In this document: in pieces, positions 35,045 to 37,836 of the stretch | How the letters are laid out: every line of letters begins with the position of its first letter | Position numbering within the stretch: position 1 is the first letter of the stretch | Source: Gammaproteobacteria bacterium | Lineage (GTDB): Bacteria > Pseudomonadota > Gammaproteobacteria > Tenderiales > Tenderiaceae | DNA length: 64,000 nucleotides | Reading direction: 5' to 3' | Assembly: GCA_016200485.1 (NCBI GenBank) | Contig: JACQEP010000013.1 | Span: 1 to 64,000 of the forward strand | Position numbers and translations under genes: made by a program | Notes under the pieces: generated by a model | What the model saw: only the letters and a program-made list of their open reading frames with translations | The model's database searches: none | Told to the model about the DNA's origin: nothing

Positions 35045-36079
35045 TCACTGCACGTAACTCAATAGGCTGCGTCGGCGTCGCCACCAACGGCGCTGATTTC
35101 GCGCCGTGATCCGCCATTCAAACCCCGCATCAGTCACCAGCCGTATACTCATTATTTTCTGCTCACCCAATGCCGAACTCAGTTCAGACACCCATTCACT
35201 GACAAACGCATCAATAAAATTTCGCCAGCCCTCAATATCGCCAAATTGACCGGTCTTTACCGCACCATCCAACACCACCAGATGCTGCCCACCCTCCGTC
35301 GACAACGCCAACCACTCCGCAGCGGTGGGCGGCAAACCATCTACTTTCACATCTGAATAAGATGCCAAGGCCTGAGTCAGCGGCTCATTTGACCACACGT
35401 GCGTCCAAGGCACAGACTGACAACTAACAAGTTCCCCACCACCCCAAAACCATAGGCTGTTAATCTCTGGTTTGCCCCCTAATTGTCGACGTCGATTCAC
35501 CTCGGAACTGTGAAATATCATCTGGACTTCATTCATCACGCGATGCCACGCCATTGCCTGCGAGCCTTGCGGCAAATTGGGATCGACATCCTGCCCGATC
35601 ACAGCATTCAACGGTCGCGTTCGCACCTGCGGCCGTTGCGACAATCGTAAATACCAACGTAAAGGATGGGGCGCAAACAATTCCATACCATCGTCACGAA
35701 ACACGGCGTTGAACTCACGCACAAGTTGTTGCGCCTCCTGCGGCTGAATCAACAACTCACAATTATCAAACATCACCAATCGATCGCGATCCGGTTTCAA
35801 ATGCACAGGATCTGCCCGCAACCATACCCCATCACCACGCACGCCATCCGTAATACGCGTAATTTCAGCGACTGGCAAATCCTGATCAGCGACCGCAGAG
35901 ATGCCAAACAACAAGAACAGCGCCTCCATAAATCCAGGAACGCATGAGTGCTGCTCGCTGCGGGCTAACCAGCGCTCCAAATGAGCCAGCGCCAAGCCAT
36001 CTAAGGCCCCCGAAGTACAGCGAACCGCTTCCGCGCCGAATAAACCAGGAACGAACAACGTAATATGGCGATCTTGCAT
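35045..36079 (-). CDS. Conserved protein of unknown function (COG4255-like, upstream of recJ)
   Basis: A 344-residue soluble protein, with no signal peptide or membrane segment. It has a conserved-looking core INSLWFWGGGEL and an Arg-rich C-terminus (RNQRRWWRRRRSLL). I associate this pattern with the COG4255 group, sometimes annotated as RpfE-type regulator or phosphoglycerate-mutase-like and often found beside recJ; I do not see a complete catalytic site that would support an enzymatic name. It ends two bases before recJ starts, so the two are one transcript. The function is unknown. Confidence 0.7.
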   Translation of the reverse strand: MQDRHITLFVPGLFGAEAVRCTSGALDGLALAHLERWLARSEQHSCVPGFMEALFLLFGISAVADQDLPVAEITRITDGVRGDGVWLRADPVHLKPDRDRLVMFDNCELLIQPQEAQQLVREFNAVFRDDGMELFAPHPLRWYLRLSQRPQVRTRPLNAVIGQDVDPNLPQGSQAMAWHRVMNEVQMIFHSSEVNRRRQLGGKPEINSLWFWGGGELVSCQSVPWTHVWSNEPLTQALASYSDVKVDGLPPTAAEWLALSTEGGQHLVVLDGAVKTGQFGDIEGWRNFIDAFVSEWVSELSSALGEQKIMSIRLVTDAGFEWRITARNQRRWWRRRRSLLSYVQ

Positions 36080-36153: not shown

Positions 36154-36176
36154 AAAAAAGGCGCCATTCTGGCGCC
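36154..36176 (-). terminator. Terminator after the small gene at 36225-36563
   Basis: On the minus strand GGCGCC AGAAT GGCGCC is followed by six Ts. It lies about 50 bases past the stop, after a palindromic repeat. Confidence 0.75.
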
Positions 36177-36184
36177 CAACGATG

Positions 36185-36212
36185 GTAGGGGCACGGTGCG
36201 CCGTGCCCCTAC
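36185..36212. repeat. Near-perfect palindromic repeat
   Basis: The arms GTAGGGGCACGG and CCGTGCCCCTAC pair completely around a GCGC-type centre. This sequence type is scattered in many bacterial genomes. It sits between the small gene and its terminator. Confidence 0.65.
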
Positions 36213-36224
36213 TGAAAGGGCGGG

Positions 36225-36563
36225 TTACCCTGTCTTGAGGAGGAGCATTAATTCACTGGATACGTTTTTGGCCTGGGCCGCCAGAGCCAGGCCGCTATTG
36301 CCTTCAAACAGGCCGCGGAGGGTCTGTGCGACCTGTGAAGCATGTTCAGCCGACTGGATCACCCCATTACCTCGACTGTCATCCTTTCGATTCAGCACCT
36401 CAGCTGCACGGCTCACGGTTACGGCATCATCTTGCCGCCCGCTGGCAACCGTTGACGCCTGATCACTTGTTGACACCTGATTGAGATCGAGCTGATTACC
36501 CAGCCGCGACGCATGACTCTGGGTTAGATTTTGTAACCCGTTGTTATCAATTGGTTTTGCCAC
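36225..36563 (-). CDS. Small protein with flagellin-tail-like C-terminus
   Basis: A 112-residue soluble protein of unknown function. The N-terminal half is rich in N, Q, S and T and looks disordered; it includes DAVTVSRAAEVLNR. The C-terminal half is helical (AEHASQVAQTLRGLFE, then GLALAAQAKNVSSELMLLL) and resembles the C-terminal helix of flagellins, but the protein is far too short to be a flagellin. The GTG start has AAGGAG eight bases upstream. A sigma-54 promoter candidate lies upstream at 36636-36651, and a strong terminator follows, so it is a complete single-gene unit. A link to motility is inference. Confidence 0.65.
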   Translation of the reverse strand: MAKPIDNNGLQNLTQSHASRLGNQLDLNQVSTSDQASTVASGRQDDAVTVSRAAEVLNRKDDSRGNGVIQSAEHASQVAQTLRGLFEGNSGLALAAQAKNVSSELMLLLKTG

Positions 36564-36635
36564 TGGTAATTCTCCTTGATCTGGGTGACGATATTTTGGC
36601 GGTCCGGAACCTTATTCCCTGCTTAACTGATTAGG

Positions 36636-36651
36636 TGCAAAGACCGGGCCA
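36636..36651 (-). promoter_or_regulatory. Candidate sigma-54 promoter
   Basis: The minus strand reads TGGCCCGGTCTTTGCA, one mismatch from the -24/-12 consensus TGGCACG-N4-TTGCA, with the required GG and GC elements ten bases apart. It lies about 75 bases upstream of the GTG of the small gene at 36225-36563. Confidence 0.6.
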
Positions 36652-36849: not shown

Positions 36850-37836
36850 ATGAAGCATAATTCTAAGGTATTGATTGTACTTGGTTTCTCGACAATTTGC
36901 GCACCTGGGTTCGTCCTTGCTGCCGCACCTTTGGCGTTCGATGGCTGGACCACCAATGCCTCCGGCGCAATTGACACCAGTTCTTCCTGCTCCTCAAAAC
37001 CTGGGGTGAGCTGTAAAACCTTGGCTTCTGACAAGGGTTTTCTCCAAGAAGAAGTGAAAACACCTGATTACACCTATGTTCGCATGATCGTTACTGATCC
37101 AAGCGGTGCGGGCGGCCCATCAGGCAAGGCGTTTGCAGCTGAGTCCTTTGTTCCGTTTGCTCTGGGTAGTTCCTCGGGGATTACTCAAGGAGTGGCCTCA
37201 AAGCAAGTGGTTCGCGACGCAGCCCAAGGGTTTACCGATCAAGCCGAAGTACAAAGCGCTATGATGCGTTTCAGCAACCCAGCGATGACCGGCTTCAACC
37301 AGCCACTAACGCCGACTCCGGCAACTGAGATGTTCAAGGTGCGTCTGACGCAGACCTTTGACAAACCTGATTATCAATCAACCTTTAAATACACTGACTA
37401 TACCGCATTCGCAAGCGGCGGTCTTACCCCTGACACCGATACTGTCATCGGCCACACCATGGAAATATCGCAGACAATTCCGATCCCCAACGCACCAAAC
37501 GCCAACGCCAAGCAAGGCTTCGTACACAAACAGGCAGGTGGTTACGCGGGTAATTCTGTTCCATTTCCGTTCCCATTCGGTAACTACTTTGTTAGCGAAA
37601 AGATTACCACTGCCGGTTCAGCAGTACTTAACGGTAAGACAGTTTCGTGGAGCGATGCCGACACGATTTCCACAAGCTGGGTCGCCGAGGATACCAGTGG
37701 CCTGGCGACCACTGCTCAAGCACTCACCAACATAACCACGAGCAGCAGCGCAAGCCAAACTTTGACCAATGTACCGACGCCTACATCGCCAACTGTTTGG
37801 CCGGCGATTTTCGGTACTGCACCAAGCTTCCCATAA
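36850..37836 (+). CDS. Secreted or periplasmic protein of unknown function
   Basis: A 328-residue protein with a clear signal peptide (basic start, hydrophobic core VLIVLGFSTICAPGFVLA, cleavage likely after AAA near 26). The mature part is rich in S, T, G, P and A, has two closely spaced cysteines (SSCSSKPGVSC) and no membrane segment, and looks like an extracellular beta-rich protein. I do not recognise the family. GGGG precedes the ATG. It has its own terminator and is transcribed alone, diverging from the sigma-54-linked small gene. Confidence 0.75.
   Translation: MKHNSKVLIVLGFSTICAPGFVLAAAPLAFDGWTTNASGAIDTSSSCSSKPGVSCKTLASDKGFLQEEVKTPDYTYVRMIVTDPSGAGGPSGKAFAAESFVPFALGSSSGITQGVASKQVVRDAAQGFTDQAEVQSAMMRFSNPAMTGFNQPLTPTPATEMFKVRLTQTFDKPDYQSTFKYTDYTAFASGGLTPDTDTVIGHTMEISQTIPIPNAPNANAKQGFVHKQAGGYAGNSVPFPFPFGNYFVSEKITTAGSAVLNGKTVSWSDADTISTSWVAEDTSGLATTAQALTNITTSSSASQTLTNVPTPTSPTVWPAIFGTAPSFP

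Follow-up and report, generated by a model that had tools for sequence, protein, structure and literature searches.

Flagellar assembly is timed by the export of the anti-sigma-28 factor FlgM, which leaves the cell once the hook is finished, and by the hand-off of the chaperone FliS. FliS wraps the D0-C end of flagellin (PMC6070490), and in Salmonella it is described as binding both flagellin and FlgM (PMC8527033; PMC8036289), the latter being itself an exported protein (PMC8527033). FliS and FliA are reported to compete for FlgM, and in Pseudomonas FlgM and FliS are products of the sigma-54/FleQ tier (PMC8036289). In Helicobacter, the protein HP1076 depends on RpoN and is a FliS ligand that competes with flagellin, and its deletion is described as leaving motility without defect (PMC7248283); a FliS ligand therefore need not be essential.

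A gene in the window (the whole 64,000-nucleotide stretch of gammaproteobacterial DNA that was analysed) may encode a further FliS ligand. Its product would be a FliS client made before flagellin under sigma-54 control, probably with FleQ, and would tune the switch to filament building, a reading to which we give a probability of roughly 0.45. The gene has 112 codons and lies on the minus strand at 36225..36563, from a GTG start (36563) to a TAA stop (36225-36227), an assignment resting on the reading of the open frame, on homologues and on dN against dS. A Shine-Dalgarno sequence, AAGGAG, is read at 36572..36577 (minus strand). Further upstream on that strand, TGGCCCGGTCTTTGCA at 36636..36651 matches 11 of the 12 bases of the sigma-54 consensus TGGCACG-N4-TTGCW at the standard spacing; it occurs once in the window, and the GTG start is 72 nt past its end. 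Promoters of this type frequently drive flagellar genes. The one mismatch and correct spacing given in a preliminary description of the locus, the span of which stops at 36651, the exact end of the site, are thereby confirmed. That description also gave the gene its own terminator, and here the outcome is mixed: past the gene end there is a terminator-like hairpin with a T run (36159..36177, minus strand; 8 pairs, then TTTTTA), but with 8 such sites in 4 kb against a mean of 5.0 in shuffles it is weak evidence alone. Between stop codon and hairpin is a perfect palindrome, GTAGGGGCACGG-N4-CCGTGCCCCTAC (36185-36212), present in a single copy in the window where chance would be expected to give none. 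The next gene on the minus strand (35045-36079) specifies a 344-aa phosphoglycerate-mutase-like protein, matching PF10143 at E 0.0025, below the family cut-off; it is placed between the gene under study and, further downstream, what from their translations we take to be recJ, prfB and lysS. On the plus strand, 36850-37836 encodes 328 aa that begin like a signal peptide and match nothing in Pfam.

The tail of the protein, residues 69-112 (36228..36359, minus strand), aligns with the C-terminal D0 region of flagellin (FliC; PF00700), the FliS-binding end. For HHalign a target set of 13 rows, which omitted G243, G241, G328 and G230, was set against 14 FlgM and 19 flagellin sequences, FlgM loci L068 and L076 and flagellin locus L104 having been left out as their frames were not read at the expected offset. 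Residues 65-112 matched the 19 flagellin ends with a probability of 92.7 and P 4.3e-7, none of 200 column shuffles doing as well; against FlgM the same residues were at chance level, with 21/200 shuffles as good. Among PDB sequences a 10-row family profile found 16 matches, 15 of them flagellin C-termini (best E 5.6e-4), and a 16-row profile found 31, of which 26 were flagellin (best E 7.4e-5), including the FliS-bound flagellins 1ory_B (E 4.9e-4) and 5yud_C (E 5.2e-4). Of the five others, two were RecA constructs (best 0.004), two were designed proteins and one was a matrix-binding protein. The likeness of the tail to flagellin is, on these alignments, real, and the earlier suggestion of a helical end resembling the flagellin C-terminal helix is borne out by both searches. 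Pfam flagellin models (PF00669/PF00700) gave no reported match to the family, and there is no sign of an N-terminal D0/D1 region, Flagellin_N being absent in Pfam searches and the PDB profile matches to flagellin falling at its C-terminus only.

FliS is described as contacting Gln501 and Leu512/513 of Helicobacter FlaB (PMC7248283). With the C-termini aligned, in a mapping of our own, these residues correspond to Q97 and L108/L109; across all 10 rows of the first alignment Q97 and L108 do not vary, and the FliS-contact positions are kept in most members of the family. Counting against a FliS client, Q97 is replaced by H in G078, G200 and G230, and the tail residues may equally be conserved for filament packing. 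A minor exported structural protein is accordingly one alternative, the tail packing in the inner tube, either at the hook-filament junction or in the filament, or else blocking further growth, its partner N-terminal helix being missing, and the head serving as export signal. The last 42-48 residues do align with flagellin D0-C right through to the final LL. Flagellin D0-C, though, packs against its own D0-N helix, and a protein of 112 aa with low predicted order, lacking that helix and the D1 domain and belonging to the sigma-54 rather than the sigma-28 tier, makes an unlikely building block, even if a FlgM-like head would suit an exported substrate, as FlgM is (PMC8527033).

The head, residues 1-63 (36375..36563, minus strand), is mostly disordered and ends in the FlgM-like DDAVTVSRAAEVL (residues 45-57). 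Its likeness to FlgM (PF04316), which is of similar size at about 100 aa, was overlooked in the preliminary description. Residues 1-64 matched the 14 FlgM sequences with a probability of 59 and P 9.3e-5, again with 0/200 column shuffles as good, and against flagellin they were at chance level (128/200 as good). The family profiles matched FlgM proteins over the N half only, those of G263 and G160 at E 0.006 and 0.008 and that of G629 at E 4e-5, the last encoded by a gene followed by what by eye is a FlgN-like ORF; the single FlgM among the 16 PDB matches of the 10-row profile, 1rp3_B, covered residues 30-62 at E 0.81. Common to both is a disordered N half ending in D-x-V-T-V-S-x-A-A-x-x-L, which fits the looser FlgM helix pattern D-x-V-T-x-S/T-x-A-x-x-L. 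As the N half matches FlgM and the C half flagellin, with the crossed pairings at chance, the protein reads as a hybrid of two independent halves, FlgM-headed and flagellin-tailed, and both halves resemble late flagellar export substrates by these comparisons.

With such a head the hybrid could instead be a FlgM-related regulator, in which either the head or the VTVS-AA--L helix common to the two would be a rival of FlgM for sigma-28, for an export component or for FliS, and the tail would add chaperone affinity. The match of the N half to FlgM and the reported FliS/FliA competition for FlgM (PMC8036289) lend themselves to that; only about 20 columns are common to FlgM, however. The likeness stops at residue 60, the later, sigma-28-binding helices of FlgM are missing, and neither the Pfam nor the NCBIfam FlgM model is reached, one of 16 members touching TIGR03824 at E 0.068. 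A separate true FlgM is also present in 15/18 genomes, and we regard the regulator as rather improbable, somewhat more so than the structural protein.

Single-sequence scans of the window protein against Pfam and NCBIfam gave no match. By their models the hybrid stands outside the flagellin and FlgM families, and most likely it works with parts of both. Pfam matches of a few members to Stu2_CTS and to viral-named families (E 0.004-0.3) were set aside as chance matches of helix or composition. Two AlphaFold2 runs gave a disordered stretch at 22-45 followed by helices, at low confidence (pLDDT 56-57), and Foldseek returned two matches of no use, both with E above 3. No FlgM-flagellin hybrid of this kind was met in a literature search that covered mostly open-access papers.

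Within the Gammaproteobacteria, homologues are spread over at least seven families. When 56 genomes were searched, counting that of the window, 10 had a match, namely the window genome, eight more f1 genomes (f1 being its family) and G046; in two f1 members, G002 and G007, this search found no hybrid gene. From 370 genomes sampled across the class the 16-row profile recovered 12 stand-alone members in seven families (G000, G001, G003, G004, G046, G078, G200, G107, G328, G241, G243 and G230), and 73 of the 370 matched at E 0.001, most of the further matches being flagellin ends in long frames. Among the 348 genomes of a phylum sample a full-length match was found in the window genome only. A scan of genome contigs with the single sequence gave no match and with the alignment five loci, on contigs of relatives including Candidatus Tenderia and gammaproteobacterial bins. 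In f1 the order hybrid gene, 344-aa gene, recJ is kept in 7/7 wide loci, these representing seven of the eight other f1 carriers, with G008 not among them. In five of six pairs dN was 0.24-0.62 against dS of 0.85-3.0, and in the sixth dS was saturated. A chance origin, the frame being spurious or the remains of a decaying flagellin next to a fortuitous sigma-54-like site, might have been entertained given the silence of Pfam and NCBIfam on the window protein and the ease with which single sites of this kind arise; homologues in seven families, conservation of promoter, Shine-Dalgarno sequence and synteny, and dN so far below a dS of at least 0.85 rule it out for practical purposes.

For the promoter, the best match to the 12 consensus bases within 130 nt upstream of each gene was scored against a background of 1478 windows of 130 nt, of which 18 (1.2%) reach 10/12 and two reach 11/12. 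A single 11/12 site may arise by chance, but at least 10/12 is reached upstream of 11 of 16 homologues (five of them at 11/12), and a 17th, that of G230, which was picked up solely through its protein sequence, is preceded at 59 nt by TGGCACGACACATGCA, also at 11/12, so the promoter is above chance. With 12 of the 17 homologues at 10/12 or better against 1.2% of the background, it is conserved in relatives, and in G006 (9/12) and G008 (8/12) TGGCC and TTGC are kept at the same distance. In three of the 17 (G328, G241 and G243) the expected place is without a sigma-54 site, which, with the lower scores of G006 and G008, counts against the FliS client reading, and among members lacking the site a search for sigma-28 promoters gave none that was convincing.

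To judge by its title, Jyot 2002 reportedly places FleQ binding on the downstream side of the RpoN site. Between sigma-54 site and start, GTCA-N6-TGAC was sought in 12 homologues (G008, G243, G241, G328 and G230 being left out): it is exact in three (G001, G010 and G107), 7/8 in G003, G006 and G078, and 6/8 or less in G000, G004, G005, G009, G200 and G046. The exact copies are a point for FleQ; unfavourable to FleQ control is that the window itself has a degenerate, weak box-like position, GTCACCCAGATCAA, at 36576..36589 (minus strand) with 6/8 defined bases. The element GTCAAAAAAATGAC of G107 recurs as an identical 14 bases upstream of fliC in the window genome, where it adjoins TAAAGTTT...GTCGATA, a sigma-28-like sequence by the general consensus. 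Control of flagellin itself by sigma-28 is supported by predicted promoters, those of most f1 relatives being sigma-28-like, and sets it apart from the hybrid gene with its sigma-54 promoter. GTCA-N6-TGAC resembles the published FleQ box, which is given as GTCAaAAAAtTGAC or GTCAAT-NN-ATTGAC (PMC6120874, PMC10723142), and as FleQ consensus motifs are described as unreliable (PMC6120874), FleQ control of the hybrid gene is judged likely and no more. A FleQ domain was found in 18/19 genomes, some matches being weak or not FleQ proper. The fleQ of the window genome (G000:C4 ~90680, locus L163) has an in-frame TAG with the remainder of the frame open, the open frame being 311 against 474-526 in most relatives; this too speaks against FleQ control, and reflects either a sequencing error or a strain with a broken fleQ.

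Flagellin is present in each of the 12 class-sample carriers, while 207 of the 370 genomes overall have it. By random draw this has P 0.0008, which is too small since carriers are related; counting seven independent families gives P 0.017. In the marker-tested genomes, which include G002 and G007, rpoN was found in 19/19 and FlhA in 18/19, with FliS in 14/18 and flagellin C in 17/18. The window genome has on contig C4 an apparently whole cluster from flhA to flgN (names by eye), its flagellin, FliS, FlgM, FlhA and FleQ being confirmed by marker searches. Some flagellar markers are missing from G002, G007 and G008 (77-88% complete), and G046 (98% complete), whose flagellin is near a contig end, gave no FliS match. 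The exception in the association with flagella is G005 (83% complete), which has hybrid gene and promoter, no FlhA, flagellin, FliS or FlgM, and weak FleQ-domain matches; it either lacks its cluster from the assembly or is a real counter-example. Tenderia-type genomes have tandem, very short flagellins (frames of 235-239 aa) with two FliS genes each (G004:C1:1202378-1207864, G006:C96, G010:C8).

G005 would fit recruitment of the sigma-54 gene to a non-flagellar role, with a tail related to flagellin only historically, and so would the orphan location. In none of the loci looked at is the hybrid gene inside a flagellar cluster, a point against the FliS client; it is beside recJ in f1, and elsewhere its neighbours vary, none being flagellar by eye and those in G230 including response-regulator-like genes. 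It is also missing from most flagellated genomes, with 12 carriers to 207 having flagellin. Against such recruitment are the flagellin of every class-sample carrier, the FleQ-like element in some members and the resemblance of both halves to flagellar proteins, and we rate it on a par with the regulator. The accessory flagellar role foreseen in the preliminary description is well supported by this comparison, together with rpoN and the conserved promoter; its alternative suggestion of a secreted protein is one that we only infer.

For a sigma-54-tier protein with the two ends, the most fitting reading is a client of FliS that comes ahead of flagellin. From its own promoter, probably activated by FleQ, the hybrid would be made in the early or middle tier and would occupy the flagellin groove of FliS while flagellin is still absent, possibly competing with FlgM for it. 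FliS so occupied might be kept from acting too early, or be protected, until on hook completion the hybrid is exported or displaced by flagellin, with the hook-to-filament transition or filament growth being tuned as a result. Conservation of the promoter, the likeness of the two halves and the co-occurrence with flagella and rpoN are shown by the comparisons above; FleQ as activator, FliS binding, export and the timing role are what we infer here. The wider proposition, that fusion of a FlgM head to a flagellin tail gives sigma-54/FleQ-type gammaproteobacteria a dedicated exportable occupant of FliS, and with it an added timing step after the hook is complete and before the filament grows, is more tentative.

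If the FliS client reading is true, the hybrid would provide a direct handle on FliS restraint and the timing of late export. The nearest described counterpart is HP1076 of Helicobacter pylori, with which it has RpoN control in common. HP1076 is experimentally a small, flagellin-like FliS ligand, whereas FliS binding by the hybrid is proposed, and the part of flagellin that it resembles is D1, as against D0-C for the hybrid (PMC7248283). Among PDB profile matches at E 10 there is no HP1076-named chain, and HP1076 is an analogue with no detectable sequence relationship to the hybrid, which, should it act as proposed, would be a second, unrelated instance of the logic that HP1076 suggested.
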